A stretch of 64,000 nucleotides of DNA from Clostridia bacterium (GTDB taxonomy: Bacteria > Bacillota > Clostridia > Oscillospirales > Acutalibacteraceae). Of the stretch, positions 1 through 59,227 are shown piece by piece. A model generated the notes under the pieces. That model made no database searches, had not been told where the DNA came from, and saw only the letters and a program-made list of their open reading frames with translations. The stretch covers positions 33,185-97,184 of the forward strand of contig JAFXCH010000061.1 of NCBI GenBank assembly GCA_017516485.1, written 5' to 3'. Position numbers and translations under genes: made by a program. Within the stretch, counting starts at the first letter, position 1, and each line of letters starts with the position of its first letter.

Positions 1-1143
1 GTCGGAGAAGGGGATAGGTGTAGAGTGGTCGTTTTCGTACTTCACTCTGTCCTCTTCCTTGCGGAAATCGGGGATGTCAAATGGCTGATTGCCGTTTAAA
101 ATACTGCGGTGTGCGAGGATTGCGACTGATGCCATTGTTGTTGCAAAGTATACGTCAAACGGTGGTTTCTTGCCTGTGCGGATACACTCAAGGAATTCGC
201 GTGTTACAAAGAAGTCTCCTCCGCCGTGGCCTGCATTCTTTGCAAGCTCGGCATCCTCAGGGCTATGCTCGGGGTCGTAGCAGTTTACTTCCTGCATACC
301 CTCGGGTATCTGCCAGCTGTTATAGCGCAGCATTATTTTTTCGCCCATACCTCTTATATTCTCAATCTGACCGTTTACACCGCAGATTCGGTAAGAGTTG
401 CTGTGTGCACCTAATCCGGCACAGCCTGTCACCTTGAATACGGAGCCGTCACTATTGAGCGTTGTGATAATTGCGGCGGCATCATTTACGTATCTTGCCG
501 TAAAGCAATCGGCGGGTATTTCGTTTGCTACAGGCATCGCAGTGACTCTTACTGGTACAGAGCCTGTTGCGTACATAATCGGTGCGAGTGAATGGGTGAT
601 GTAATATGAGCGTGGCAGAAAATTCCGCCAGTGTCTTTCGTCAGGTGCGAGTGTTGCACAGGCTTCGGCATCGTACATATTGAATGGGTGGTTGTATTCG
701 CCCTCTGCATAGAGAATTCTGCCGAGTGTGCCGCCGTCGCATACACGCTTCATCTCTTTGTTAAACAGCATAAACGGGTAGTTTTCGGCAAGCATATAAA
801 TTGCGTTGCTTTTTTCTGCCGCTCTTACAAGCGCTACACCCTGAGCCATTGTGCCGTTTGATGTGCATTCGCTGAGCACGTGTATGCCTTTTTCAAGGCA
901 ACGTATTGCGTATGGTGCGTGCTCGGCAAAGTAATTTGTGAGCAGAACAGCATCCATAGGGTGCTCAATAAATTTATCGAAGTCAGTGTAAACAGCAGCA
1001 TCTCCGATTTTTTCTTTACATTCTGCTATTTTCTTTTCGCTCTGCTCGCATACTGCAACAATCTCACCGCCGTTTACTTTTAAGCTGTCGATAAGGTTTT
1101 CGCCGCGTCCGAGTCCGAATATACCGATACGAATTTTTTCCAT
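1..1143 (-). CDS. Gfo/Idh/MocA-family NAD(P)-dependent oxidoreductase (C-terminus cut by window edge)
   Basis: The frame opens at an ATG at 1143 and stays open for 381 codons to the edge, so the C-terminus is missing. The N-terminus reads MEKIRIGIFGLGRGENLID, a Rossmann GxGxG-type nucleotide site, followed by an LSECTSNG segment typical of the family's cofactor domain; later GEYNHP and GHGGGDFF fit the Gfo/Idh/MocA substrate domain. These enzymes oxidise or reduce sugars and cyclitols with NAD(P); the substrate cannot be told here. The ribosome site AAAGGTG follows directly on the T-run of an upstream intrinsic terminator, so expression may depend on readthrough from the membrane-protein pair. 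GH109-type glycosidases share this fold and are an alternative. Confidence 0.85.
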   Translation of the reverse strand, partial: MEKIRIGIFGLGRGENLIDSLKVNGGEIVAVCEQSEKKIAECKEKIGDAAVYTDFDKFIEHPMDAVLLTNYFAEHAPYAIRCLEKGIHVLSECTSNGTMAQGVALVRAAEKSNAIYMLAENYPFMLFNKEMKRVCDGGTLGRILYAEGEYNHPFNMYDAEACATLAPDERHWRNFLPRSYYITHSLAPIMYATGSVPVRVTAMPVANEIPADCFTARYVNDAAAIITTLNSDGSVFKVTGCAGLGAHSNSYRICGVNGQIENIRGMGEKIMLRYNSWQIPEGMQEVNCYDPEHSPEDAELAKNAGHGGGDFFVTREFLECIRTGKKPPFDVYFATTMASVAILAHRSILNGNQPFDIPDFRKEEDRVKYENDHSTPIPFSD

Positions 1144-1156
1144 ATTTATCACCTTT

Positions 1157-1199
1157 AAAAAATGCTCAATCTCCGATTGGTGAAAGCAGAGATTGAGCA
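1157..1199 (-). terminator. Intrinsic terminator between the membrane-protein pair and the oxidoreductase
   Basis: An 11-bp perfect stem (TGCTCAATCTC at 1163-1173 with GAGATTGAGCA at 1189-1199) is followed on the minus strand by six T (1162-1157). It lies only about 14 bases before the start codon of the oxidoreductase, so it may act as a partial terminator inside one transcription unit. Confidence 0.8.
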
Positions 1200-1216
1200 G
1201 AAATTAAAACTTAAAA

Positions 1217-1906
1217 TCAGTCTTTAACGTTATCAAGCCAACCAATCTTGTGCATTGCAAGAGCGCCGCCGACGGAAGCTACAATACCGATGAAGAGAAG
1301 TGTACTTGCACCTGTTTCGCCCATACCGGGGATGAGAAGTGTAACTACCATAATAATAATCGGGAAGAAGGAAATTCTCCAGTGCTTGATGAAGTAGCCT
1401 GCGCCGAGTGCACCGAAGAGTGCGGGAAGCACCATCTTGAATGCGGGCTGAAGCAGGGGACTCTTTGTAAAGCTGTCAAGGAAAGGAGCAAAGGCAATAA
1501 CGCCGATTGCGAGAATTACTGTTGTAACAATTGAAGAAGCTGCGATAGCAATTGTAGAAATAACTTCGCCTTCTTCGGAGTTAGCCTTTACCTTTGCACC
1601 CTCCATTGCGTTGATAGCGCAGGGGAGCTTGAGGTTTGCAATATTACCTGTAACGAATGAAAGGTAAGTACCGCCTGCACCGAGCATGGGAGTGTAAACT
1701 ATAACCTCGACAACGGCAACTGTCCAATATGTCGGGATGAGCTTGAGAAGACCTTTCCAGATTAAGTTAAGGTCAGGGAAAACATTGAGATAAAGGCAGA
1801 TTGCTATGGGGAACATAAGCAGAGCACAGAGTGCTGTTACGGAAGAAATTCTGCCCCATGAATGGACGCTGTCAATATAAGATTTCTGCTTTTTATTTTT
1901 AGCCAT
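1217..1906 (-). CDS. Multi-spanning membrane protein, partner of the upstream DUF5058-like protein
   Basis: The 229-residue protein has a charged N-terminus (MAKNKKQKSY) and about five to six hydrophobic segments, for example residues 20-45, 55-80, 115-145, 155-170 and 175-215. There are no catalytic motifs I recognise. It starts 3 bases after the stop of the upstream gene, so the two are almost certainly co-translated and probably form one membrane complex. A GGAGG-type site lies before the start at the end of the upstream gene. I infer a small-molecule transporter made of two subunits, but no substrate is suggested by the neighbours. Confidence 0.7.
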   Translation of the reverse strand: MAKNKKQKSYIDSVHSWGRISSVTALCALLMFPIAICLYLNVFPDLNLIWKGLLKLIPTYWTVAVVEVIVYTPMLGAGGTYLSFVTGNIANLKLPCAINAMEGAKVKANSEEGEVISTIAIAASSIVTTVILAIGVIAFAPFLDSFTKSPLLQPAFKMVLPALFGALGAGYFIKHWRISFFPIIIMVVTLLIPGMGETGASTLLFIGIVASVGGALAMHKIGWLDNVKD

Positions 1907-1909
1907 TTC

Positions 1910-2752
1910 TTAACCCCTCCATTCAAGTGTTGCAATGTCTGCAGGCAGAACATTGTAAAGTACGATTGCGGCTACCATTGCAACAATCATACCTATAGGC
2001 ATAACGAAAGGCTCGAGCCATGTGAGCTTGAGCTTCTTGACAAGAATCTCAAGAAGAATTGAAACAACAATTGCAACGATAAGAGTACAGACAGAAAGCA
2101 CACCTGCACCGTCAAGCTCTTTAGGCTCTTTTGTGCTGCCCTGACCTGCGATTGCTACGGCGATGAAAGCGCCGATAAGACCGATAAAGATTGCAGGTGT
2201 TGCAAACTTGTTGATAAACTCACCGATTGTTCTCTTGGGTTTGGTTTCGGAAACTTCATCTTCATCTTCGTTTACTTTTTCTTTATTGCTTGCTGCCATA
2301 AACTTCTTGTGAAGGGGCTTTGCAAGGAAAGGAAGAATAACGAGAGAGAAACAGATACCGAGAGTCATAACCCAGGCAATACCTGCATAAACCGTCGGGT
2401 CTGTAACTGCGTTAGCGATACCGCCCTTATGGCCGAAAGCTTCCATAGCAGCTTCAGCAGCTGTTGTTTCGTACATCAGGTTACCGATAACGGAAAGACG
2501 TACCCACGGAATAACGAGACCGAGAGCGGGAGCAAGAGCAATAACCGTAGCGAGTACGGAAAGTGCTGACGGAATTGTGAAAAGTGCACTTGATGTGACT
2601 GCGTTACGCAGTTTTGATTTGTCGAGACCCAGCTTCTTACCTTGCTTCCATGCTTTTACAAGGAAGAAGATTGACTGAATCAGAACAAAGAGGATAACAG
2701 CACCGGCTATGAGGTATAAGCCGAGACTGCCGTTGTCGAATGTTGTGGACAT
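1910..2752 (-). CDS. Membrane protein resembling the DUF5058 family
   Basis: The 280-residue protein has a first membrane span near residues 12-32, further spans through about residue 150, a charged cytoplasmic stretch around 155-175 (rich in E, D and K), and three to four spans to the C-terminus. The pattern 'SIFFLVKAWKQGKKLGLDK' after helix 1 is what I associate with DUF5058 proteins of Clostridia; that is recall, not a search. The gene is first of a two-gene unit with its own sigma-A promoter. Function is unknown; transport is the likely class. Confidence 0.65.
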   Translation of the reverse strand: MSTTFDNGSLGLYLIAGAVILFVLIQSIFFLVKAWKQGKKLGLDKSKLRNAVTSSALFTIPSALSVLATVIALAPALGLVIPWVRLSVIGNLMYETTAAEAAMEAFGHKGGIANAVTDPTVYAGIAWVMTLGICFSLVILPFLAKPLHKKFMAASNKEKVNEDEDEVSETKPKRTIGEFINKFATPAIFIGLIGAFIAVAIAGQGSTKEPKELDGAGVLSVCTLIVAIVVSILLEILVKKLKLTWLEPFVMPIGMIVAMVAAIVLYNVLPADIATLEWRG

Positions 2753-2791
2753 TCAGTTTCACCAACCTTATTTTTTAAAATTCAATTAATT

Positions 2792-2820
2792 ATAATATAT
2801 TAAAAAACTTTATATGTCAA
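2792..2820 (-). promoter_or_regulatory. Sigma-A promoter of the two-gene membrane-protein unit
   Basis: On the minus strand TTGACA (2820-2815), a 17-base spacer and TATTAT (2797-2792) precede the ATG at 2752 by about 40 bases. It sits just beyond the stop codon of the GH16 gene, so the pair has its own transcript. Confidence 0.75.
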
Positions 2821-2825
2821 GGATA

Positions 2826-3764
2826 TTACTTGACGAATTCTTTATACTGGTAGCATCTTACATAGTCGATAACAAATTCTGCAGGCCAGTTTTCTTCGGG
2901 AGTCTTGTCGATTTCGCCCGTACCGTGTCTGTCAGACCACTGTACACCGTTTTTACCTGCAAATTCACAGGAGAGGATAAGGTATTCGGGGTTCTGCGAA
3001 ACACCGCCGGTGGATAGTCTGCCTGTTTCAATGCCGTTTACATAGAATATGTACTCTGTCGGGCTCCACTCGAGGCCGTAGGTGTTGAATTCATTATAGG
3101 GGTCCCCATCAACATAAACCTTGCCTATGGAGTCACCCTTCTTGTCTGCACCGTAGCCGTCGTAAACAATACCGCTGATTACTGCATCGTTGCCCCACCA
3201 GTAGTCTTTGTAGTACATTGACTCGAATATATCAACCTCTGTGCCGTCCTGACCTGTGCCGTCAACATCTTCAACATTGTGGTTCATCATCCAGAATGCG
3301 CTCCACATACCTGTAGCGGCAGGCAGTTTGCAACGGACTTCAAAATAGCCGTAGCACTGCTCGTAAAGGTCTGCTGTGCGAAGGCAGGCAGTATACCAGC
3401 CGGGCTTGTACTCTTTGAAATTTATTTCGTCTTTCCAGTCTTCGTAATATCTGTTTTCAAGCGGCTCTTCAAGATATTCAGCGCGGATAATGAGGTTGCC
3501 GTCTTTTACGCTTGCCATATCCTCGTGCCAGTAGCCGCCCTTACGCTCTGTTTCCCACCAGGGGAAATTCCACTTTGTGCGGTCGATTTCAGTGCCGTCA
3601 AATTCGTCTGCCCATACGGGCTCGTCGGTGAATTTGCTCATATCGATTGTTTTGGTTTTGTCAGGAATTCTGCCCATATCAAGTGTGCCGAGAAAAGAAG
3701 GATTGATTGCCATTATGATTGCGATGAGGATTTCTACAAATTTCTTTAAAACAAGTCTGAGCAT
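2826..3764 (-). CDS. GH16 endo-beta-glucanase (laminarinase/lichenase type), copy 1
   Basis: The 312-residue protein carries the GH16 catalytic signature GTEVDIFES; its two glutamates are nucleophile and acid/base, in the ExDxxE form typical of laminarinase-like members. WADEFDG near residue 50 begins the beta-jelly-roll and VRCYQY ends it. The N-terminus is basic then hydrophobic (about residues 5-25), consistent with a signal peptide or membrane anchor. I chose the ATG at 3764 because AGGAGGT lies 6 bases upstream; the longer frame to 3800 would bury that site. The ribosome site overlaps the stop of the GH78 gene, so the two are coupled. Hydrolysis of beta-1,3 or mixed beta-glucans is expected; exact linkage is unknown. 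Confidence 0.9.
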   Translation of the reverse strand: MLRLVLKKFVEILIAIIMAINPSFLGTLDMGRIPDKTKTIDMSKFTDEPVWADEFDGTEIDRTKWNFPWWETERKGGYWHEDMASVKDGNLIIRAEYLEEPLENRYYEDWKDEINFKEYKPGWYTACLRTADLYEQCYGYFEVRCKLPAATGMWSAFWMMNHNVEDVDGTGQDGTEVDIFESMYYKDYWWGNDAVISGIVYDGYGADKKGDSIGKVYVDGDPYNEFNTYGLEWSPTEYIFYVNGIETGRLSTGGVSQNPEYLILSCEFAGKNGVQWSDRHGTGEIDKTPEENWPAEFVIDYVRCYQYKEFVK

Positions 3765-3768
3765 TTTG

Positions 3769-5865
3769 TTACCTCCTGAATGTATGTGTACCGGCTTCAA
3801 TGTCGTATGAATTGCCGCCGATAATTACCGTTGCGTTTTTGGGTACCGTTACTGTAAGCTCTTGTTTATTCCAACGCACACTTATATCTCTGTGTGTTGC
3901 TTTTGCCCAGTCGAGTGCAGGCAGAAAATTCGGGTTTATAACGATGCCGTTTTCGTCAATGCGGATACCTGCAATATGGCGATAAAACCAGTGATCAACC
4001 TCGCTGTACATATGGTGATTGAGAGAGTTTTTCATCTCCCAGTCTTCACACAGTGTTGTCATACCGCTGTTTATCCAGTATGCGTAGCTCGGATACGTTG
4101 GTTCGGTTACCATTTTGTAAAGTACGTCGCAGTAGCCGTTGTCGTCAAGGGCAGAGAATATGTACTTTGCGCCGAGTATGCCGCAGTCAATATGCCGGCC
4201 GTTGTCTTCTATAAGCTTTGCAAGTTGAACGGATTTTTTAGGAATTTCCTCAGGCTCGTACATTTTGAAATAAATTCCGCAGGCAAGGCAGGTCTGCTTT
4301 TTTTCAAGCTCTTCGTCGCCGAGAAATTTTTTTCGCCACGCAAGTCTGATTCTTTCGGAAAGCTCTTTGTACGGTGTCGGGTCTTCTCCCATTATTACCG
4401 CACATTTCGACATTGTTTTTGCAAGGTCAAAGTAGTCCGCCGTGCTTGTGACGTAGTTCGGGCAACGCTGAGTATACTCAGGTGCGCACCAGTCGGTAAG
4501 ACCGATATAGAGTATGCCCTCATCCTGCACAGTGTTGAGATATGAGATATATAGTTTCATATTCTCCCACATCTGTTTTATTGCACTGTCATCGCCCGTA
4601 AGCTGATAAATCTGCCAGGGGATGTTGATAATTGCACCGTCCCAAGCAGGACCTATATACCAGTCGTACCAGCTTGCTGTGGGGATTATTGCAGGTAATG
4701 AGCCGTCGGGTCGCTGTGCATCTTTGAAATCATTGAGCCACTTTTTGTAAGCCTTGACCATGTCAAAGTTGTGAAGTGCCTGCTGACACGAAAGCTGTGC
4801 GTCACCCGTCCAGCCGTTCTGCTCACGGTGCGGACAGTCGGTAGGTAAGCCCATATAGTTCGTAAGAGTTGCAAGCCTTGTTGCAGCGTGAATTTTGTTG
4901 AGCATCCCGTCTGAACACTCAAAAGAGCCGATGCTCTGTAAATCCGTGTGTACAACACATCCCTCAACCTCAAAATCTTCGGGTGCGTTTACAGCTTTTA
5001 TGTAGCGGAAACCGTGATACACAAACTTCGGTTCCCATTCCTCGGTGCCTTCGCCTTTGAGAATGTATTTGTCGGTGTGGAATTGCTGATGTGTGAAAGA
5101 GTTGATGTTTTCGTTGTCGATATCGCTGCCGTCTTTTTTCAGCTGTTCTGCATAAACAAGCTGAATTTCGGTGTCTTTTTCGCCGCTTGTTTTAATCTTT
5201 ACCCAGCCTGAAATATTTTCGCCGAAATCGTATATTCCGTTGCCGAGATATTTGCTCTTTAATGTGCGGATTTTTCTTATCGGCACCCAGTCTGCAGGCT
5301 CGATTATACCGCCGGGACCTGCGCAGACATTAGCGTTTATCCAAACGCTGTCATCAAAGCACGGCAGATTCCAACCGGGGATTTCAAGCCTTGCATCGTA
5401 GGTTTCACCCTCGCGGATATGGTTGTATGTAACGGGGCCGTTTTCGGTTTTCCAGCTGCTGTCGGATATAACACAGTCGCTTGTGCCGTCGGTGTATTCG
5501 ATGTCGAGCTGCATTATCATTTTTATGTTGTTTCGCCACGTTGCCGCCTGATAGTGCCAGGTTTTTCCCACGTCGTTATACCAGCCGTTGCCTGCAAAAA
5601 CACCGATTACGTTTTCACCTTCGGTGATGAAATCGGTCACATCGTAGGTGAGGTATAGTGTGCGAGAATCAAACTTTGTAAACGGAGTAGAAAGCACCTC
5701 GTCAGTTATGATTTTACCGTTTATTGTATATTCACCGTAGCCAAGTGCAACGGTGTTCATAACAGCCTTTTTGACCGCTTTTTCAATGTTGATGCTCTTG
5801 CGGAAAAGCCTGCTGCCGTCATCGCGCTTTGTGCCTTTGGATATCCACTTTGCTTTTTCAAACAT
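3769..5865 (-). CDS. GH78 alpha-L-rhamnosidase
   Basis: The 698-residue protein begins with a rhamnosidase N-terminal beta-domain (AKWIS..., GYGEYTINGK), then the accessory jelly-roll, then an (alpha/alpha)6 barrel with the family's GLPTDCPHREQNGWTGDAQ block containing acidic catalytic residues, and a C-terminal beta-domain (DISVRWN...LTVTVP). It removes terminal alpha-L-rhamnose from plant glycans, flavonoid glycosides or bacterial polysaccharides. There is no signal peptide, so it is probably cytoplasmic and acts on imported oligosaccharides. AAGGAGAT lies before the ATG at 5865. It is slightly short for GH78. It is translationally coupled to the GH16 gene; upstream sits a 182-bp hairpin-chain repeat. 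Confidence 0.92.
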   Translation of the reverse strand: MFEKAKWISKGTKRDDGSRLFRKSINIEKAVKKAVMNTVALGYGEYTINGKIITDEVLSTPFTKFDSRTLYLTYDVTDFITEGENVIGVFAGNGWYNDVGKTWHYQAATWRNNIKMIMQLDIEYTDGTSDCVISDSSWKTENGPVTYNHIREGETYDARLEIPGWNLPCFDDSVWINANVCAGPGGIIEPADWVPIRKIRTLKSKYLGNGIYDFGENISGWVKIKTSGEKDTEIQLVYAEQLKKDGSDIDNENINSFTHQQFHTDKYILKGEGTEEWEPKFVYHGFRYIKAVNAPEDFEVEGCVVHTDLQSIGSFECSDGMLNKIHAATRLATLTNYMGLPTDCPHREQNGWTGDAQLSCQQALHNFDMVKAYKKWLNDFKDAQRPDGSLPAIIPTASWYDWYIGPAWDGAIINIPWQIYQLTGDDSAIKQMWENMKLYISYLNTVQDEGILYIGLTDWCAPEYTQRCPNYVTSTADYFDLAKTMSKCAVIMGEDPTPYKELSERIRLAWRKKFLGDEELEKKQTCLACGIYFKMYEPEEIPKKSVQLAKLIEDNGRHIDCGILGAKYIFSALDDNGYCDVLYKMVTEPTYPSYAYWINSGMTTLCEDWEMKNSLNHHMYSEVDHWFYRHIAGIRIDENGIVINPNFLPALDWAKATHRDISVRWNKQELTVTVPKNATVIIGGNSYDIEAGTHTFRR

Positions 5866-5888
5866 AGGGCAAATCTCCTTCGAATAAA

Positions 5889-6070
5889 ATGAATTGATTT
5901 ATCAATTCAAATCATGTTGCTTACAGCAACAAATCATGGCTGCAAGCCAAATCATGCTCAAGCAAATCATTTATTAATTTATTTAATGATTTGTCTTACG
6001 GCATTATTTGTTTTTTTCAAAACATGATTTGCAAAAGTTTTGCATGATTTGCGCTTTTACAAAAACGCAT
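5889..6070. repeat. Hairpin-chain repeat, family A copy 1
   Basis: This element fills most of the 305-bp gap between GH78 and kdgK. The motif CAAATCATG recurs in the left half and its reverse complement CATGATTTG in the right half. Between linkers sit small palindromes: GAATTGATTTATCAATTC at the left end, then TTGCTTACAGCAA and GCTGCAAGC, a centre of A/T, then CAAAAGTTTTG and finally CGCTTTTACAAAAACGC. The ends read ATGAATTGAT... and ...CGCAT. A second copy lies at 33157-33340 in reverse orientation. No open frame is present. Confidence 0.85.
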
Positions 6071-6120
6071 TTATATAATCACAGTTTATCAATGATAATT
6101 ATAAAAAGCAACATAAATAT

Positions 6121-6155
6121 AAAAAACGGCGTAACGAAAATTACACCGTTTTTTT
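6121..6155 (-). terminator. Intrinsic terminator of the uronate operon
   Basis: Stem ACGGcGTAA / TTACaCCGT (one mismatch) with loop CGAAAA, flanked by A-run and T-run, so it could work on both strands. It lies 16 bases beyond the kdgK stop. Confidence 0.8.
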
Positions 6156-6170
6156 GTGAAATATGAAAAT

Positions 6171-7199
6171 TTATCTCTGTACTCTGCCTGATGCGTTGCC
6201 GCCCGCAAGCTTTTCGACTTCGTCAACCGTTACGAAGTTATAGTCGCCCTCGATTGAGTGCTTGAGTGCGGATGCCGCAACAGCAAATTCAACAGCAGCC
6301 TGAGTATCCTTACCGCTGAGAAGTGCGTAGATAAGACCGCCGCCAAAGCTGTCACCGCCGCCTACACGGTCGATAATGTGCAGGTGATATACCTTTGAGA
6401 AGCAGTATTCGTCACTTGCAACATCGTAGAGCATAGCACTCCAGTCGTTGTCAAATGCGCTCTTGCTCTCGCGCAGTGTGATTGCAACCTTCTCGAAGCC
6501 GAATTTGTCGGCAAGCTGACGTGCAACTGATTTGTAGCCCTCTTTATTGAGCTCACCTGCAGTGATGTCGGTGTTTTCAGCTTCAATGCCGAAAACATCC
6601 TTTGCATCCTCTTCGTTGGAAATGCATACGTCAACGTATTTGCAAAGCTCGGTCATAGCTGCTCTTGCCTCGTCACGTGTCCAGAGCTTGCCTCTGTAGT
6701 TGAGGTCACAGCTTACCTTGACTCCGTGTACCTTTGCTGCAATACAAGCCTGCTTGCAGATTTCTACAAGGTCGCCGCCGAGTGCGGGAGTGATACCTGT
6801 GAAGTGAAACCACTCTGCACCGTCGAAGATTTTATCCCAATCAAAATCCTCTGCCTTTGCTTCTGCTATAGCGGAGTGAGCTCTGTCGTAAATACATACA
6901 CTGCCACGCTGTGAAGCACCTTTTTCGAGGAAGTAGATGCCTACTCTGTCGCCGCCTCTTGTAATGTCGCAGGTGTTGACACCGTATTTGCGAAGCGAGT
7001 TTACAGCCATCTGACCGATTGCGTGCTTGGGCAGCTTTGTTACATAGTGTGCATCAAAGCCGTAGTTTGCAAGTGAAACAGCAACGTTTGCCTCACCGCC
7101 GCCGAAGGTAGCTTCAAATGAATCTGCCTGCACAAAGCGGAGATAATCGTATGGCTGAAGACGGAGCATAAGCTCGCCGAAGGTTACAACCTTTTTCAT
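6171..7199 (-). CDS. kdgK: 2-dehydro-3-deoxygluconate kinase (PfkB family)
   Basis: The 342-residue protein starts VVTFGELMLRLQP, has FGGGEANVAVSLANYG (sugar-binding region of PfkB/ribokinase enzymes) and near the C-terminus DRVGGGDSFGGGL, the PfkB signature with the catalytic aspartate. It phosphorylates KDG to KDPG. The start at 7199 has GGAGG 10 bases upstream and overlaps the eda stop as ATGA, so the two are coupled; the longer frame to 7262 is not needed. Its place directly after eda and downstream of uxuA/uxuB supports the KDG kinase call over other PfkB sugars. It is the last gene before a terminator. Confidence 0.9.
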   Translation of the reverse strand: MKKVVTFGELMLRLQPYDYLRFVQADSFEATFGGGEANVAVSLANYGFDAHYVTKLPKHAIGQMAVNSLRKYGVNTCDITRGGDRVGIYFLEKGASQRGSVCIYDRAHSAIAEAKAEDFDWDKIFDGAEWFHFTGITPALGGDLVEICKQACIAAKVHGVKVSCDLNYRGKLWTRDEARAAMTELCKYVDVCISNEEDAKDVFGIEAENTDITAGELNKEGYKSVARQLADKFGFEKVAITLRESKSAFDNDWSAMLYDVASDEYCFSKVYHLHIIDRVGGGDSFGGGLIYALLSGKDTQAAVEFAVAASALKHSIEGDYNFVTVDEVEKLAGGNASGRVQR

Positions 7200-7840
7200 T
7201 TTGCACGTGCCTCCTTGACAATCTGTACGGATTTTTCGCAAAGCTCGGTAATTTCGTCCCACTTGCCGTTGTCAATAAGGTCTGCGGTTACCATATATGA
7301 GCCGCCGCAGGCAGCGATAACAGGGCAGGAAACGTATTCGCCGAGATTTTTAAGGGAAATGCCGCCTGTGGGCATAACCTTGAACATCGGGAAGGGTGCA
7401 CTCATAGCCTTGATTTTTGCAAGACCGCCGCTCTGCTCTGCAGGGAAGAACTTGAGCACTTCAAGGCCGAGCTTGTATGCTGCGTGATAATCGGTCGGTG
7501 TGGTACAGCCTGCGTAAATCTCAATGCCTTTTTCCTGACAGTATTTTACGATTTCGATATCAAGACCGGGTGTTACAATAAACTTTGCACCTGCCTCGAT
7601 TGCCTCGTCAACCTGAGCGGTTGTGAGTACTGTGCCTGCACCGACAAGCATATCAGGCTGAGCCTCACTCATAAGCTTTATTGCCTTTGCCGCACCTGCC
7701 GCACGGAATGTGACCTCTGCAACGGGCACGCTACCCTTGCAAAGAGCCGCAGCAAGCGGTGCCGCATCTCTTTCGGGGTTGTTGAGTTTAATTACGGGCA
7801 CAACGCCGATTGATGAAATTTTTTCAGAAATTGCATTCAT
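7196..7840 (-). CDS. eda: KDPG aldolase (2-dehydro-3-deoxyphosphogluconate/4-hydroxy-2-oxoglutarate aldolase)
   Basis: The 214-residue length is normal for the class I KDPG aldolases. Visible motifs are VAEVTFR (catalytic glutamate), GAGTVLT, and LKFFPAE with the Schiff-base lysine, followed by PTGGI for phosphate binding. It cleaves KDPG to pyruvate and glyceraldehyde-3-phosphate, the last step of hexuronate breakdown. AGGAGT precedes the ATG at 7840, and the stop overlaps kdgK by 4 bases. Confidence 0.95.
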   Translation of the reverse strand: MNAISEKISSIGVVPVIKLNNPERDAAPLAAALCKGSVPVAEVTFRAAGAAKAIKLMSEAQPDMLVGAGTVLTTAQVDEAIEAGAKFIVTPGLDIEIVKYCQEKGIEIYAGCTTPTDYHAAYKLGLEVLKFFPAEQSGGLAKIKAMSAPFPMFKVMPTGGISLKNLGEYVSCPVIAACGGSYMVTADLIDNGKWDEITELCEKSVQIVKEARAK

Positions 7841-7868
7841 TTTAATTACTCCTTATCTGTAAGCTGAC

Positions 7869-8720
7869 TTAAACACCTGAGTAAGCTGAGAAGCCGCCGT
7901 CTACGGGAATTACGACACCGGTGATGAAGCTTGCGGCATCGTTGTTCAGAAGGAAAAGAAGGCTGCCGTCGAGCTCTTCACTCTTGCCGAATCTGCCCAT
8001 AGGTGTTGCGGCAAGGATCTTGCCTGTACGTGCTGTGGGTGAGCCGTCAGGATTCCAGAGAAGAGCGGCATTCTGTTTTGTTGAGAAGAAGCCGGGAGCG
8101 ATAGCGTTTACTCTGATACCGACTCTGCTGAAGTGTACTGCAAGCCACTGTGTGAAATTTGAAATTGCTGCCTTTGCACCTGAGTAAGCAGGAATTTTTG
8201 TAAGAGGTGTGTAAGCATTCATACTGCTGATGTTTATTATGTTACAGCCCTCTCTGCCTACCATCTGGCGTGCAAATGCCTGTGTGGGTATAAGTGTGCC
8301 CAGGAAGTTGAGGTTAAATACAAAGCCTACGCCTGCACTGTCAAGGTCAAAGAAGCTCTTGGTGTCGGTATCAATGTCGCCGAGCTCAAAATATTCCTTG
8401 TCTGTTGTAGCCTTGGGGTTGTTGCCGCCTGCACCGTTTATAAGTATATCGCACTTGCCGATTTCTTTCTCAATAAGGTCAGCAACCTCGTAGCATATAT
8501 CTTTGTTTAGTACATCGCATTTATATGCTTTGGCTTCACCGCCTTCAGCACGGATTTCGGCTGCCACTTCTTCAGCGGCAACATCATTGAGGTCGAGCAA
8601 AGCAACCTTTGCGCCTGCACGTGCAAGCGTTTTTGAAAAAGCACTGCAAAGCACGCCGCCTGCACCTGTAACTACGGCAACTTTGCCTGTAAGGTCTGTA
8701 TTGAGTACATTCTTTTGCAT
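7869..8720 (-). CDS. uxuB: SDR-family D-mannonate oxidoreductase (fructuronate reductase)
   Basis: The 283-residue protein is a classical short-chain dehydrogenase: TGAGGVLCS cofactor loop, NGAGG, the catalytic serine in INISSM, and YSGAKAA with the Tyr-x-x-x-Lys pair. In Firmicutes an SDR enzyme of this type (like Bacillus YjmF) replaces the long-chain E. coli UxuB and interconverts D-fructuronate and D-mannonate with NAD(H). The call rests on position between uxuA and eda; sequence alone shows only an SDR. CGGAGG precedes the ATG. Confidence 0.85.
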   Translation of the reverse strand: MQKNVLNTDLTGKVAVVTGAGGVLCSAFSKTLARAGAKVALLDLNDVAAEEVAAEIRAEGGEAKAYKCDVLNKDICYEVADLIEKEIGKCDILINGAGGNNPKATTDKEYFELGDIDTDTKSFFDLDSAGVGFVFNLNFLGTLIPTQAFARQMVGREGCNIINISSMNAYTPLTKIPAYSGAKAAISNFTQWLAVHFSRVGIRVNAIAPGFFSTKQNAALLWNPDGSPTARTGKILAATPMGRFGKSEELDGSLLFLLNNDAASFITGVVIPVDGGFSAYSGV

Positions 8721-8737
8721 TTTATTATTCCTCCGTT

Positions 8738-9784
8738 TTATTTTGCCGCTTTTTCGCAGGCTTCAAACAGTCCGTTGATATACGCCGCACCGAGTGCACG
8801 GTCGTAAAGACCGTAGCCTGGCTTGCCTGTTTCGCCCCATATCATTCTGCCGTGGTCGGGTCTGACATAGCCGTCAAAGCCTGTTTCGGCAAGAGCCTTT
8901 GTGATTTCGTACATATCAAGACTGCCGCAGGATGAAAGGTGGCCGCTCTCTTCAAAGCTGCCGTCCTCCATAATGAGGATATTTCTCATATGCATGAAAG
9001 CGATTCTGTCCATCTCACTGTATTTTCTTACCATAGCCACAACGTCGTTTGTCGCTGCACATCCGAGTGAGCCTGTGCAAAGGCAGAGGCTGTTTGCAGG
9101 GGAGTCGACAATGCTGAGCATACGGTCAAGGTTTTCTTCGTTAGTGATAATTCTCGGCAGACCGAAAATCGGGTAGGGCGGATCATCGGGATGAATAGCC
9201 ATTCTGACACTGCACTCTTCTGCTACGGGAATAACCTTCTTGAGGAATTTCTCAAGATTTGCCCAGAGACCGTCTGCACCGATTTCGCCGTAAGCAGAGA
9301 TAAGCTCCCTTACCTCGTCCTGGGTGTAGCTTGAATCCCAACCGGGCAGGTGAATATCATCCTTGAGCGGGTCAAGACCCTTCATCTGCTCCCAGTACAT
9401 TACAAGGCTTGTTGAGCCGTCAGCCGCAACCTTGTCAAGCTGTGTTCGTGTCCAGTCAAATACGGGCATAAAGTTGTAGGTTACGCACTTTACACCGTAC
9501 TTTGCACAGCGGCGGATGTTTTCACAGTAGACCTCAAGAAGCTCGTCTACATTACCTCTGCCGAGCTTGATGTTTTCGTGTACGGGAATTGACTCGACAA
9601 CATCAAAGACAAGACCGTTATCTTCACACTGCTTTGCCATTTTTGCAATTGATTCTTCGGGCCATACTTCGCCGGGCTTTACATCGTAAACAGCACTGAC
9701 GATTGATTTCATATTGGGAATCTGACGGATATATTCAAGAGAAATCGGGTCGGACTCGCCGTACCAACGGAATGAAAGTTTCAT
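8738..9784 (-). CDS. uxuA: D-mannonate dehydratase
   Basis: The 348-residue protein starts MKLSFRWYGESDPISLEYIRQ and keeps the UxuA pattern FRWYG, YNFMPVFDWTRT, MAIHPDDPP and RPDHGRM; the His/Asp/Cys residues in these blocks bind the catalytic metal. It dehydrates D-mannonate to 2-dehydro-3-deoxygluconate in the cytoplasm. AAGGAGA lies before the ATG. It follows the GH2 gene by 10 bases and precedes the mannonate oxidoreductase, so glucuronate released from a glycoside could be processed by the same transcript. Uronate isomerase (uxaC) is not in this window. Confidence 0.96.
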   Translation of the reverse strand: MKLSFRWYGESDPISLEYIRQIPNMKSIVSAVYDVKPGEVWPEESIAKMAKQCEDNGLVFDVVESIPVHENIKLGRGNVDELLEVYCENIRRCAKYGVKCVTYNFMPVFDWTRTQLDKVAADGSTSLVMYWEQMKGLDPLKDDIHLPGWDSSYTQDEVRELISAYGEIGADGLWANLEKFLKKVIPVAEECSVRMAIHPDDPPYPIFGLPRIITNEENLDRMLSIVDSPANSLCLCTGSLGCAATNDVVAMVRKYSEMDRIAFMHMRNILIMEDGSFEESGHLSSCGSLDMYEITKALAETGFDGYVRPDHGRMIWGETGKPGYGLYDRALGAAYINGLFEACEKAAK

Positions 9785-9794
9785 TTTTATCTCC

Positions 9795-12074
9795 TTAGTT
9801 TTTAGCTTTGGGTTTATTTATCTTGTTGAGCTTTTTGTTGATTGAAAGAAGCTGCTCTTTGGTAAGGCTGACATTAACCATTCCCAACATGCTTGACGCT
9901 CTGAGGATAGAAAATCCGCCGAGCATTTTGAGCAAATCGGGCGAGAATTTGAAGCCTGATATTGAAAATCCGCCGCCGCTCTTCTCTTTTGACTTGGAGT
10001 TTGATTTCATTTCTTTCATTATGACTCTGCCGAATGAAACAAGCACGAACTTGCCGCGGAATGTTTTGAGAACTTCGCTGATGGGTGTGTTGATTGAAAG
10101 CTTGCCTTCAGGTTCGGTTACGTCAAACCAGTTGAGCACTGCACCCTTTTCACGCAGCAGATAATCCTCGTTGAATTTGTCAACCTTGCGGATTACGCTC
10201 TCATCCTTGTATTCGCCTGCAACTGCGGTAAGTGTAGTTTCGCCTGCGTTGGGTACGTCAAAGTAGAAGAAGTGGTCAGCCGCAGTCTTTTTGCCTAATG
10301 ATTTGCCGTTTGCAAAAAGCTCAACCTCGGGCTGATTTGAGTAAACGGTTACCTTTGTTGTGTCTTCGACACGGTCAATATATCTCTTGCCGCAAAGGTG
10401 AACGAAAGGCTCGTCGGAAAGCCATGCCTTATATGCGTAGAATGAGTCCTTCTTATACTTGCGGTCGAATGTTACAAGACCCTTATGATTCTGACCGTTT
10501 TCGCCGCCCTCAGCTCTTGCGTCTGCACCGAAGTCAAACATATTCCATACGTGAGTTGCCCAGATGTAGGGGCGTGAGAAAAGCTGTTTGATAAGCTCTT
10601 CGTGGTAGAATGCCTGATACTCTTCGGAGTAGTCGCCCTGTTTCGGGTCGGAGTTGTGCCAGTTGAGAGCTTCACAGCCGTATTCGCTCATACCTATCGG
10701 GATATTGGGATACTTTGCATGGAATTTATCAAACCACGGGCCGTTCATTGAAGTGTCACCGCCATACCAGCCGAAGTAGTGGTTGTAGGAAACGAGATCG
10801 GGAATTTTGATATATGATGCATCAATACCGCACATTGAAACAACAGCGATAGTAGTAAGACGGGTTTTATCCATCTTGTGCACAAGGTCGTTGAGAAGCT
10901 TGTGGTTTTCGATAAGGTCGGGGTCTTCTGCACCGCCCATTGTGATTTCGTTTGAAAGTCCCCAGAAAAAGATTGATGCGTGATTGTAATTCTGTGCAAC
11001 AAGCTCTGTCATCTGTGAGATTGTGTTCTTTCTGCCGTCGGGAAGATGTTTTGAAATATAGGGAATCTCAGCCCATATTACAAGACCCTTTTCATCGCAA
11101 AGGTCGTAGAAATACTGGTCGTGCTGATAGTGAGCAAGGCGTATTGTGTTTGCGCCTACTTCAAGTATAAGCTCAATATCTTCCTCGTGGTGCTCGTGAA
11201 GAAGTGCGTTGCCTATGCCGAGTCTGTCCTGATGGCGTGATACACCTCTGAGCGGATAGCTTTCGCCGTTGAGGAAGAATCCTTTTTCGGGGTCAACTTT
11301 AAATGTGCGACAACCGAAGCGTGCACTTACGTTGTCAAGCACTGTGTCACCGTCGAGCAGTTCGACAGTTGCAGTGTAGAGATAGGGGTCTTTTTTGCCG
11401 TGCCAGAGATGGACATTTTTGATGTCAAAATCTTCGTCGGTGTCATCGGTTGTTTCGGTTGCGACAACGTTACCCTCTGCATCTGTGATTGTATAGCGCA
11501 GTGTCTGACCGTCTTTTTTATTTGTTACATAGACTTCAATGTCGATTTCTGCGTCGTTGCCCTTGATTTCGGGTGTAACCTTAATACCGGGTGCACCGTA
11601 GTAATCGAGGTCAAAGTGGGATTCGCTTACACCGATAATGTTTACATCGCGGTAAAGACCGCCGTAGAATGTGAAGTCAGCCATCTGCGGATAAACGTAG
11701 TCGTTGGGGGAGTTGTCTACAGTGATTATAAGGAGATTATCTTCCTTAAGTGCGTCGGTCATATCGACTCGCCATGTTGAATAACCGCCGTCGTGTGAAG
11801 CGAGCTTTGTGCCGTTGAGGTAAACCTCAGCAGAGGAGTTTGCACCTTTTATTTCAAGGTAAATGCGGTCGGTCTGCGGAAGGTCAGCCTTTGCAAACTG
11901 CTTTGCATAGCAGCAGGTGCCTCTGTGGTAATCGTTGCCGCCGTCCTGTCCGTCGGTAGCGTTCCAGGTGTGGGGCAGGCTTATCTGTTCACACTCTGCA
12001 GGTGCGGCAGAGGGGATACCTTCGGTTGATTTTGAAAAAAGCCAATCGCTGTTAAAATTTACAATGTTTCTCAA
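9795..12074 (-). CDS. GH2 beta-glycosidase (probable beta-glucuronidase or beta-galactosidase)
   Basis: The 759-residue protein has the GH2 order: sugar-binding jelly-roll (about 1-170), Ig-like domain (about 170-285), TIM barrel with the acid/base in WGLSNEIT and the nucleophile in GMSEYGCEA. An NHKGL segment after the barrel gives the Asn-x-Lys arrangement that beta-glucuronidases use for the uronate carboxylate, but some GH2 galactosidases have a similar NDKGL, so this is supportive only. Leading a uronate operon favours glucuronidase. Start is TTG at 12074 with AGGAGG 8 bases upstream. The last ~110 residues are odd: a short beta segment, then a Lys/Ser/Gly-rich linker and a basic tail. 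No signal peptide. Confidence 0.88.
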   Translation of the reverse strand: MRNIVNFNSDWLFSKSTEGIPSAAPAECEQISLPHTWNATDGQDGGNDYHRGTCCYAKQFAKADLPQTDRIYLEIKGANSSAEVYLNGTKLASHDGGYSTWRVDMTDALKEDNLLIITVDNSPNDYVYPQMADFTFYGGLYRDVNIIGVSESHFDLDYYGAPGIKVTPEIKGNDAEIDIEVYVTNKKDGQTLRYTITDAEGNVVATETTDDTDEDFDIKNVHLWHGKKDPYLYTATVELLDGDTVLDNVSARFGCRTFKVDPEKGFFLNGESYPLRGVSRHQDRLGIGNALLHEHHEEDIELILEVGANTIRLAHYQHDQYFYDLCDEKGLVIWAEIPYISKHLPDGRKNTISQMTELVAQNYNHASIFFWGLSNEITMGGAEDPDLIENHKLLNDLVHKMDKTRLTTIAVVSMCGIDASYIKIPDLVSYNHYFGWYGGDTSMNGPWFDKFHAKYPNIPIGMSEYGCEALNWHNSDPKQGDYSEEYQAFYHEELIKQLFSRPYIWATHVWNMFDFGADARAEGGENGQNHKGLVTFDRKYKKDSFYAYKAWLSDEPFVHLCGKRYIDRVEDTTKVTVYSNQPEVELFANGKSLGKKTAADHFFYFDVPNAGETTLTAVAGEYKDESVIRKVDKFNEDYLLREKGAVLNWFDVTEPEGKLSINTPISEVLKTFRGKFVLVSFGRVIMKEMKSNSKSKEKSGGGFSISGFKFSPDLLKMLGGFSILRASSMLGMVNVSLTKEQLLSINKKLNKINKPKAKN

Positions 12075-12122
12075 GTTTGTTTCCTCCTGTAATTTATCTG
12101 AACAATAATCCCAATAAATATA

Positions 12123-12151
12123 ATTATATAACTTTTATTATATACAGTCAA
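12123..12151 (-). promoter_or_regulatory. Sigma-A promoter of the GH2-uxuA-uxuB-eda-kdgK operon
   Basis: Minus strand TTGACT (12151-12146), 17-base spacer, TATAAT (12128-12123), about 50 bases before the TTG start of GH2. No obvious operator palindrome was seen around it. Confidence 0.8.
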
Positions 12152-12191
12152 CAATGATTAATACCAAAACAGCAAAAAAGAAAATTTGATT

Positions 12192-31900: not shown

Positions 31901-33154
31901 ATGAAAGAATTTTACGAAAACTCTCAGCAGCCCGAAAAAGCTGTGCTTGTGTGCGTTGATTTCGATCAGTACGACCCCGACAGCTCACTTGATGAGCTTG
32001 AGGAGCTTGCAAAAACTGCAGGCGCAGAAGTCGTTGCACGAATGACGCAAAAGCGCGATAAACCCGACAATGCAACCTATATAGGTTCGGGTAAACTTGA
32101 AGAACTGAAAATGTTTTGCGAGGACAGTGAAGTCGACCTGCTGATTTTTGATGCAGAGCTTACTCCGTCGCAGACACGCAATATTGAAGACGAAACAGGC
32201 GTGCGTGTTGTTGACCGTACAACCCTTATTCTTGACATTTTTGCAGGACGTGCAGTATCGGGTGAGGGTAAGCTGCAGGTTGAGCTTGCACAGCTCAAGT
32301 ATTCGCTTCCGCGTCTTACGGGTAAGGGTGTTCAGCTTTCGCGTCTCGGTGGCGGTATCGGCACAAGAGGTCCCGGTGAAACCAAGCTTGAAAGTGACAG
32401 ACGTCATATCCGCCGCAGAATTTCCGCACTTGAGGAGCAGCTTGAAGGTCTTGAGAAAAGACGAGGCAATCTCCGCTCCAGACGTGCTAAGGACGGTGTG
32501 CAGACTGTTGCAATAGTCGGCTACACAAATGCGGGCAAGTCTACTCTTATGAATACGCTCACCGAAGCAGGCGTGCTGGCTGAGGATAAGCTTTTTGCAA
32601 CTCTTGACCCTACCTCAAGAGGTCTTGATTTGCCCGACGGCAGACGCGTAATGCTTATTGATACAGTCGGCCTTATCCGCAGACTGCCTCACCACCTTGT
32701 CGAAGCGTTCAAATCCACGCTTGAAGAGGCGGCGAGTGCAACCGTAATTCTCAACGTGTGCGACGCATCGTCAGACGAATGTGCTGAGCATCTTCGTGTT
32801 ACGGCAGACCTGCTTACAGAGCTCGGTTGTATGAATAAGCCGATAATTTCTGTTATGAATAAATGCGACCTTATCGAATCGACAGGTGACCTGCCAACAG
32901 TCGGTAAGAGCGTTATGATAAGTGCGAAAAACGGCACGGGGCTTGATAAGCTTCTTGCCGAAATTGCCGCCGCACTTCCGCCCACACGCAGGCAGGCAAA
33001 GCTGATACTGCCTTATTCAAAGTCTGCTGTTGCGGCACGCTTCCGTACAGAGGGCAAGGTGCTTTGCGAGGATTACCGACCTGAGGGAATTTACCTCGAG
33101 GTAATAGCAGAGATGTATCTGCTCGATGAGAATAAGGAATATATTGTCGAATAA
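31901..33154 (+). CDS. hflX: Ribosome-associated GTPase HflX
   Basis: The 417-residue protein has the N-terminal HflX domain (GSGKLEELK, FDAELTPSQTRNIE, DRTTLILDIFA), the glycine-rich RLGGGIGTRGPGETKLE linker, coiled coil (about 165-190) and a G domain with G1 GYTNAGKST, G3 DTVGL, and G4 NKCD. HflX splits stalled or hibernating 70S ribosomes. A C-terminal YxxxLP-like extension is present. It is 4 bases after ricT, so co-translated, and the last gene before the second family-A repeat. Confidence 0.96.
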   Translation: MKEFYENSQQPEKAVLVCVDFDQYDPDSSLDELEELAKTAGAEVVARMTQKRDKPDNATYIGSGKLEELKMFCEDSEVDLLIFDAELTPSQTRNIEDETGVRVVDRTTLILDIFAGRAVSGEGKLQVELAQLKYSLPRLTGKGVQLSRLGGGIGTRGPGETKLESDRRHIRRRISALEEQLEGLEKRRGNLRSRRAKDGVQTVAIVGYTNAGKSTLMNTLTEAGVLAEDKLFATLDPTSRGLDLPDGRRVMLIDTVGLIRRLPHHLVEAFKSTLEEAASATVILNVCDASSDECAEHLRVTADLLTELGCMNKPIISVMNKCDLIESTGDLPTVGKSVMISAKNGTGLDKLLAEIAAALPPTRRQAKLILPYSKSAVAARFRTEGKVLCEDYRPEGIYLEVIAEMYLLDENKEYIVE

Positions 33155-33156
33155 TA

Positions 33157-33340
33157 ATGCGTTTGCAAAAACGCAAATCACGCAAAATGAAATTTTGCAA
33201 ATCATGATTTCGAAGAAATCAAATCATGCCGTAAGGCAAATCATAAAAGTAAACATAAAATGATTTGCTTCGCATGATTTGGCGTAAAGCCATGATTTGT
33301 TGCTTAGCGCAACATGATTTGAATTGATAAATCAATTCAT
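33157..33340. repeat. Hairpin-chain repeat, family A copy 2
   Basis: This begins 3 bases after the hflX stop. Reading left to right: ATGCGTTTGCAAAAACGC, then mini-hairpins TTTCGAAGAAA and GCCGTAAGGC separated by AAATCATG, a short centre near 33250, then CATGATTTG linkers separated by GGCGTAAAGCC and TTGCTTAGCGCAA, and GAATTGATAAATCAATTC at the end. It is copy 1 (5889-6070) in reverse orientation: the end palindromes match, the inner hairpin stems differ in sequence but keep pairing. Confidence 0.85.
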
Positions 33341-33380
33341 TGTTAAATAAACAGGCAAAAAATTTGTCAGATTATTTTTC

Positions 33381-34675: not shown

Positions 34676-35027
34676 GGGGATGAAAGGATTTCGACGGGGA
34701 TTCAGAGTCATGATAAGCGAGTAGCGGTGCAGACCCGCTATAAAAGCTGCAGTTTATTAAAAATAAACGACAACAATACAGTTCTTAAAGCTGCTTAACT
34801 TATAGCAGCCGTCGTTACCGGGAGTACCGCGGCCGGATAACGGCGTCGATTAGCGGTGAACGTGCGTGTCGGATTAGCCTTGTACGACACCATGAATTAA
34901 AGGCTACCGTAGGGTGAAGCCTGCCGTCCGGCGTCACCTGAGGGGAATCCTAAAAGAACGGATACACTCGTAGAAAGTTGTGGTAATGGGTTTTCGGACG
35001 CGGTTTCGACTACCGCCATCTCCACCA
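34676..35027 (+). ncRNA. ssrA: Transfer-messenger RNA
   Basis: The acceptor stem pairs GGGGATG at the 5' end with CATCTCC before ACCA at the 3' end; the tRNA-like T arm GGTTTCGACTACC is followed by GCCATCTCCACCA, and CCA is encoded. The tag frame ends AAC GAC AAC AAT ACA GTT CTT AAA GCT GCT TAA, giving ...NDNNTVLKAA. The resume codon is not certain; no GCN codon stands at the expected place. The Ala-Ala end is standard for protease recognition, but Lys before it is less common than Leu or Val. Length 352 bases is normal. smpB is upstream. Confidence 0.97.
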
Positions 35028-58918: not shown

Positions 58919-59227
58919 CATGCTAAATAGGATAGTGTGCAGATATGCGTGGAAACGGAAGGTGGCTGCTCTTTGAAGCAGGGAATTTCCGTGGAGCATG
59001 TCCGATCATTGAACCGGGCGACTAGTAATAGTTCTCACCTCAGGTGCGCTCATCTCACAGGCGTACTGCGCGTTCATCTCACGGATGCGGTATAGGTGAA
59101 ATTGCACTTTAGCCAGCCGGAAAGTACTCAGGGAAGAATACTTTTCCGGATTTTGAATGTAGCTGTTGGAAACACCCGGCAGCGTGTGCTAAAAGTGTTG
59201 CCCGCCAAATTTTTAGGAGGCGCAAAA
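58919..59227 (+). promoter_or_regulatory. Long structured leader of the S10 operon
   Basis: About 310 bases contain several helices: ACGGAA...TTCCGT around CTGC-TCTTTGAA-GCAG (58955-58992), a triplicated CTCA(C/T)CTCA motif (59036-59085), CCGGAAAGTA / TACTTTTCCGG with a following ATTTT (59117-59153, terminator-like), and GGCAGC / GTTGCC (59178-59202) just before AGGAGG. Autoregulation by a ribosomal protein of the operon (L4 is usual in other bacteria) is likely but not shown. Confidence 0.6.

Follow-up and report, generated by a model that had tools for sequence, protein, structure and literature searches.

The DNA element described here is, in our judgement, probably (roughly 55%) one of a family of short mobile DNA elements, non-coding and non-autonomous, whose way of working resembles that of REP/BIME/REPIN arrays. 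It occurs twice in the 64,000-nucleotide stretch of Clostridia DNA that we analysed (the window), which is part of contig C12 in a 2.17-Mb assembly of 65 contigs. The family of elements is real, is found genome-wide and is present in more than one family of the bacterial order. By direct observation, its members are dispersed, share a conserved linker, keep their hairpins by pairing, are present or absent between sister species, lose hairpin 'beads' at linkers and, in one case, have been inverted in place.

The two copies in the window lie in opposite orientation, as the sequence-only reading had claimed; with their ends AATG...CATT included, copy 1 spans 5888–6071 (184 bp, plus strand) and copy 2 spans 33156–33341 (186 bp, minus strand). 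Both obey a common grammar: AATG, an end palindrome (H0, AATTGAT..ATCAATT in both copies), three repeats of the linker CAAATCATG followed by a small hairpin, then CAAATCAT and an AT-rich centre. The mirror half consists of ATGATTTG, three repeats of a hairpin followed by CATGATTTG or a variant, a second end palindrome (H0′) and CATT. The exact linker CAAATCATG occurs 10 times in the window, always inside copies 1 and 2, against an expectation of 0.94 and no more than four occurrences in 100 shuffles; in the window GAATTGATNNATCAATTC, with up to two mismatches allowed, is also found only at these two copies.

On the plus strand, copy 1 opens with the end hairpin H0 (TGAATTGATTTATCAATTCA, 5890–5909), followed by the first linker (5908–5916), hairpin H1 (TTGCTTACAGCAA, 5917–5929), the second linker (5930–5938), H2 (GCTGCAAGC, 5939–5947), the third linker (5948–5956) and H3 (CTCAAG, 5957–5962), the stem of which is lengthened by the G and C of the linkers. 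The last left linker, a short AT-rich centre and the first right linker (CAAATCATT...AATGATTTG) occupy 5963–5993. On the minus strand, the right half carries H3′, H2′ and H1′ spaced by CATTATTTG, CATGATTTG and CATGATTTG (5994–6051) and finishes with H0′ (TGCGCTTTTACAAAAACGCA, 6050–6069); this copy is partly decayed, in H3′, H2′ and the intervening linker CATTATTTG. Copy 2 reads from H0′ (33158–33175, minus) through a half with linkers CAAATCACG, CAAATCATG, CAAATCATG and CAAATCATA and hairpins CAAAATGAAATTTTG, ATTTCGAAGAAAT and CCGTAAGG (33174–33245, plus), the centre (33246–33258) and a half with AATGATTTG, three CATGATTTG linkers and hairpins CTTCG, GCGTAAAGC and TTGCTTAGCGCAA (33259–33321, minus) to H0 (33320–33339, plus).

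Copy 1 is flanked by the start of an alpha-L-rhamnosidase gene (3769–5865, minus strand; three Pfam rhamnosidase domains), which we take to be of the GH78 type, and by the end of a pfkB-type kinase gene (6171–7262, minus strand). The proposal that copy 1 occupies the upstream region of the GH78-type gene holds as to position, since it lies directly upstream, but the sister species G001 does without the element there. Copy 2 begins one base past the stop codon of an HflX-like GTPase gene (31901–33154) and stops before a sigma-70-like smpB promoter, as read by eye. Elsewhere in the window, Rfam identifies the tmRNA downstream of smpB (34676–35027) and a Clostridia S10 ribosomal leader (58942–59021).

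Further copies, the lack of which the sequence-only reading held to speak against its proposal, are plentiful both in the genome and in its relatives. A pattern of linker, hairpin and linker matched 97 times in the 2.17-Mb genome of the window (G000), with no match for the reversed control, and three of the 11 genomes of the genus were positive (G000, 97 matches; G001, 51; G007, 34). A stricter pattern matched two of 300 genomes of the family. Across the order, matches were found in eight of 394 genomes (G350, 62; G000, 47; G001, 25; G367, four; G614, two; three genomes, one each), and CAAATCATG arrays are also present in two genomes from a different family of that order; G350 and G367 carry the two halves in swapped order. 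A wider contig scan returned 33 stretches, 27 of which were judged by eye to be arrays (L050 among them being doubtful); the matches L037, L040, L041, L043, L044 and L054 were judged not to be. Records of the array stretches are named Clostridia, Clostridiales, Oscillospiraceae, Ruminococcaceae or Ruminococcus. The array-bearing metagenome-assembled genomes (MAGs) come mostly from the ruminant gut: RGIG records name ruminant hosts, RUG MAGs are presumably from cow rumen, and UBA4306 has no stated source. One and the same array was recovered from two MAGs (L031 and L042). When 19 genomes were searched, the 11 array-bearing ones besides G007 gave 2 to 40 matches each, while the other seven, chosen from doubtful or rejected matches, gave 1 to 3. 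Because genus genomes without the element had given 0, these 11 MAGs lie outside the 11 genomes of the genus; in them the linker is unchanged and most hairpins are different.

Viral contigs yielded no match to the genus-type array pattern and none to three linkers in a row; among 11 looser viral matches none was a hairpin array by eye, so the presence of linker words does not by itself entail hairpins. A 7.7-kb contig of G350 (C4, L227) carries five CAAATCATG arrays, near positions 256, 700, 1519, 3210 and 4978; it is phage-like, with genes for a terminase large subunit and a phage-type peptidase, and its arrays have the reversed order of halves. Arrays are clearly denser on contig C9 of G000 (111 kb) and the syntenic contigs C33 and C18 of G001 than in the window. 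A unit of about 80 bp (AAAGACAATGGC..CTCGGTG..TTTATTGAGGTATT) occupies the middle of many copies, in tandem runs of up to about four, for example at G000 C9:16920–17367 and in other long-centre copies, and also beside the element at C54:34371.

The same plan is followed by two further linker families. A scan of the fetched DNA for words repeated between hairpins returned CAAATCATG (family 1), GCGATAT/ATATCGC (family 2) and one stray match in L144; applied to 20 further stretches, it returned ACTTCAC/GTGAAGT (the third family) in G006, ATATCGC in G003 and a few five-letter matches. Both new families have the mirror plan with complementary halves. Representatives of the second are found in G001 (C33:91657–91893 and 93042–93279, L109), G003 (L185–L194) and G000 (L195, L196), and of the third at L168:14194–14318 in G006 and at L197–L214. 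GCGATAT pairs occur in all 11 genomes of the genus (59 in G003, 58 in G001, 28 in G000, 21 in G004 and 18 in G007, all plainly multi-copy, and 2 to 5 in the rest; the reversed control matched once, in G010), and ACTTCAC pairs in six of the 11 (45 in G006, 18 in G001, 14 in G002, eight in G000, two in G005 and one in G007; reversed control, three in G003 and one each in G000, G001 and G009). Since several contigs of G003 begin or finish inside similar GCGATAT copies, our results suggest a recent amplification of this family that breaks the assembly. Such arrays appear to break assemblies, and they may be located in gene leaders or between genes of phage type.

The sequence-only reading had supposed that pairing, and not sequence, is what is kept. 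This holds for the hairpins, but the linkers are kept by sequence. We assembled 58 distinct hairpins from eight MAGs, among the matches listed and leaving out those with an inner variant linker; 36 of the 58 pair at all three outer positions, compared to a mean of 3.3 and a maximum of 13 in 5000 rounds of re-dealing the 3′ ends, and 50 pair at two outer positions (re-dealt mean 8.3, maximum 20). The compensatory change that had been predicted for the inner stems is therefore strong across genomes, and within the genus it is seen in part. Four of the eight H0 pairs show two-sided change, and all cells are paired (10 distinct; none of 2000 shuffles as good); the 17-nt H2′ has one pair of this kind (1 of 2000 shuffles as good), but the signal is weak for H2 (69 of 2000) and H0′ (214 and 309 of 2000), and H1 and H3′ hardly vary within the genus and lend no support to compensatory change; H1′ contributes one cell. 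An alignment of 13 copies, with helix 7 out of register, contains eight hairpin cells changed on both sides versus 3.1 by shuffling (1 of 500) and three pairs changed on both sides versus 1.7, which is not unusual (71 of 500).

Fifteen pairs of copies, with orthology taken from position, allowed the same comparison at shorter range. In family-2 stems seven of nine two-sided changes keep the pair and three of four one-sided changes break it; some of the two-sided changes are whole differing beads, which may be replacements or misalignment. All 31 pairs compared in family-1 stems are unchanged. Linkers of orthologous copies are identical at 386 of 393 bases in family 1 and 252 of 257 in family 2. 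Across the two halves, linker variants are matched in 45 of 67 cases versus 48.8 by shuffling (one element, L053 = L120, being counted twice), and the 24 linker pairs across the centre contain no two-sided change: 17 never vary and seven vary by unpaired cells only. In-stem mismatches are rare, and in a strand test on wobble pairs, in which mismatches were few, most A.C cells were accounted for by one linker substitution. A hairpin with tandem G.A mismatches, which can form on one strand only, was recognised by eye in family 1 (in several genomes) and in family 2. Taken together, the tag is kept while the hairpins drift between genomes provided that pairing holds, on one plan and with at least three tags in a single genus. 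Arrays of this kind separate what would be read (the tag) from what would be needed merely as shape (the hairpin), and offer a handle for finding the reader.

Comparison of sister species, which had been proposed as a check, revealed presence and absence at orthologous sites. Copy 1 is in place in G007 and absent from G001, where window positions 1–5884 and 6070–12180 align to contig C7 up to 63880 and from 63878, respectively. Copy 2 is absent from both G007 and G001, with an additional deletion at the site in G001. A further site is filled in G000 (C9:54.76 kb) and without element in G001. Two 'empty' sites, C33:16.7 kb and C9:99.55 kb, bear scars, and absence can therefore be deletion. Rearrangements in place were also seen. 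The element at G000 C9:33913 shares its flanks and unusual H0 letters with G001 C33:67859 and is inverted end to end, the one such case. The copy at C9:63851 lacks the middle of an element that is complete at G001 C33:95868, with the deletion located at the linker word; at C54:34371 and G001 C18:7809 the core is inverted relative to the ends. At three sites (C9:59.6, 61.0 and 78.8 kb) G000 and G001 appear to have swapped families, but a rough estimate predicts about 1.5 such coincidences by chance, and we therefore do not lean on this observation. Counting orthologous copies apart, 26 of 27 true left ends have A before ATG and 35 of 37 right ends have the corresponding letter of CATT. At copies 1 and 2 we saw no sign of a target duplication; a few bases distinguish the empty sites from the filled flanks, and a small duplication may therefore have escaped notice.

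To account for these features, we propose the following mechanism. The unit would be a hairpin plus the constant linker tag CAAATCATG, with several units running each way about the centre and AATG/CATT as ends. A trans-acting DNA enzyme or the host recombination machinery would recognise the tags beside hairpins in single-stranded DNA, and the recognised element would be moved without target duplication. Beads would be gained and lost through recombination between linkers, and effects on RNA or on adjacent genes, if any, would be incidental.

A candidate mover was sought among Y1 transposases (IS200-like/RAYT, PF01797). Such genes are present in seven of the 11 genus genomes, and Y1 matches were found in 10 of the 17 genomes holding scan matches; six of the 13 array-bearing genomes searched had no match, although MAGs may be incomplete. 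Scanning 16 of the 20 Y1 loci of the genus, we found one (L089) with an array within 1.5 kb and one with a single linker word; L089 also contains another repeated palindrome. At seven of 14 loci inspected another palindrome is present at least twice, inside the gene or near it, for example GGAACGGTC..GACCGTTCC or GGGCGACC..GGTCGCCC, which suggests that the Y1 genes of the genus serve other repeats. With a single array near 16 loci, none of these genes in six of 13 array-bearing genomes and other palindromes at half of the inspected loci, we rejected RAYT/IS200 as the mover. The loci with other palindromes (L094, L085, L084, L089, L093, L095 and L091, with GGAACGGTC.., GGGCGACC.. and GGGCGGC..) apparently represent several REP families. 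No convincing recurrent protein family was detected beside arrays among the 25 largest groups of 257 ORFs within 1.5 kb; the neighbour groups that do recur are orthologues of one locus, ORFs running through arrays and one transporter-type ATPase. Inspection by eye of 43 clusters in G000 and G001 revealed no autonomous copy with a gene in its centre; since clusters were cut at 130 bp between linkers, a large centre would appear as two half elements.

Alternatively, the arrays could be structured RNA modules which, once transcribed, take the shape of a tree with four-way junctions, protecting mRNA ends or regulating them. The minimum-energy RNA fold of copy 2 is just such a tree (−57.9 kcal/mol, z −5.65), in which linkers pair across the centre and hairpins protrude in pairs. 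The single-strand fold of copy 1 is also more stable than its shuffles (z −3.56) with the tree only partly formed, and a long-centre copy folds in a partly tree-like manner (z −4.93); 27 of 43 clusters have three or more linkers in each half, and in their minimum-energy folds a mean of 55% of the left-linker bases are paired to right linkers. That three unrelated linker families all have complementary halves, and that the GH78-type gene has copy 1 immediately upstream, would also fit an RNA function. However, the unmatched linker variants and the 24 linker pairs without covariation argue against it, and since the linkers do not covary we regard the tree as following from the mirror plan rather than as a demonstrated product of selection. 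Of families 1 and 2, 66 copies have a gene on either side: 48 are flanked by genes of the same direction, 12 by convergent and six by divergent genes (crude ORF calls; orthologous copies counted separately, one G003 copy counted twice at the overlapping loci L172 and L190, three of 82 clusters dropped as doubtful and others left out for want of a gene on one side). In 42 of the 48 tandem cases both distances are below 300 bp; 21 of these copies are no more than 20 bp from the stop codon, as an mRNA-end module might be, and 12 are that close to the start, with no significant difference between stop-side and start-side distances (p 0.17). Relative to flanking genes, orientation is weakly biased in family 1 (22 of 33, 22 versus 11; p 0.08), no Rfam family hits an array at gathering score, and G.A hairpins can form on one strand in one half and on the opposite strand in the other. 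We consider the RNA explanation unlikely.

Two further readings were considered. In one, palindromes would grow selfishly and need no enzyme of their own, with template switching and recombination at short inverted linkers copying, correcting, inverting and spreading the arrays. Template-switch correction can yield compensatory changes without selection, and the rarity of in-stem mismatches is what it would produce; both bead loss and core inversion fall at linkers, and a family-2 element in G001 (C33 near 93279, 93.27 kb) has an end hairpin that borrows the last codons and stop of its host gene as one arm. But the constancy of AATG/CATT at unrelated sites, along with the end-to-end inversion at C9:33913, indicates defined ends, and a linker that stays unchanged across families of the order while the hairpins differ points to recognition by something; growth of this kind alone is therefore, to our mind, rather improbable. 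In the other, the arrays would be clustered sites for a host DNA-binding protein, as in a nucleoid or insulator element, with the linker as the site and the hairpins as spacers. The high conservation of the linker between orthologous copies is in line with this, but a plain binding site requires neither a hairpin in every spacer nor a G.A motif confined to one strand, and copies differ between sister species, all of which makes this reading very unlikely. The mobile-element reading thus remains the one that we favour. More tentatively, and perhaps with the odds somewhat against it, the arrays may constitute an undescribed class of modular mobile elements of gut Clostridia, with one grammar (tag plus free hairpin repeated, mirror halves, defined ends) and at least three unrelated tag families, each presumably read by its own member of a putative class of enzymes that recognise tag plus hairpin in single-stranded DNA. 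We found no description of these repeats among the best-ranked open-access papers (at most the top 12 to 20 of each search), which, with subscription journals and most preprints outside that scope, is weak evidence of novelty.

The arrays can be compared with several known systems. The sequence-only reading called them MITE-like, and they do resemble MITEs, as defined in PMC3049150, in being short, AT-rich, highly paired, non-coding and dispersed, and also in being structured and present or absent at orthologous sites. Unlike MITEs, they share no terminal inverted repeats beyond AATG/CATT, H0 and H0′ being different palindromes; target duplication was not seen, and the search with PF01797 found no cognate or parent transposase. 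Similar to pneumococcal BOX elements (PMC3049150), the arrays are intergenic, modular and structured if transcribed, and fixed end modules around a variable number of inner modules may also be common to both; array end palindromes are mostly fixed in the genus and bead number varies. However, each BOX module has a conserved sequence, which for boxA and boxC is about 50 nt long (PMC3049150), whereas the inner modules of arrays are not one sequence and share a linker, pairing and a mirror plan. Intergenic mosaic elements with dRS3 in Neisseria are named in PMC3049150 and PMC2267715. The arrays resemble the Neisserial elements in alternating a constant short repeat with variable segments. In Neisseria it is the constant repeat, dRS3, that is itself an inverted repeat; in the arrays it is the variable segments that are palindromic, whereas the linker, taken whole, is not.

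The closest parallel is with REP/BIME/REPIN sequences, which, according to PMC3116915 and PMC3733652, carry a GTAG or CGTC tag and have a cognate RAYT (Y1) transposase. Both are intergenic and present in many copies, both consist of palindromic units that bear a tag and face opposite ways, and both show compensatory stem changes and have a proposed mobility as single-stranded DNA. The arrays work like BIME/REPIN but are not members, since they have another tag and the Y1 genes that we examined lack flanking arrays: the tag CAAATCATG, shared by the genus and a different family of the order, is neither GTAG nor CGTC. Finally, the small bacterial repeats treated in PMC3116915 and PMC3733652 keep a hairpin sequence together with a short tag, whereas the arrays string several tandem units in each half and leave their hairpin sequences free between genomes.
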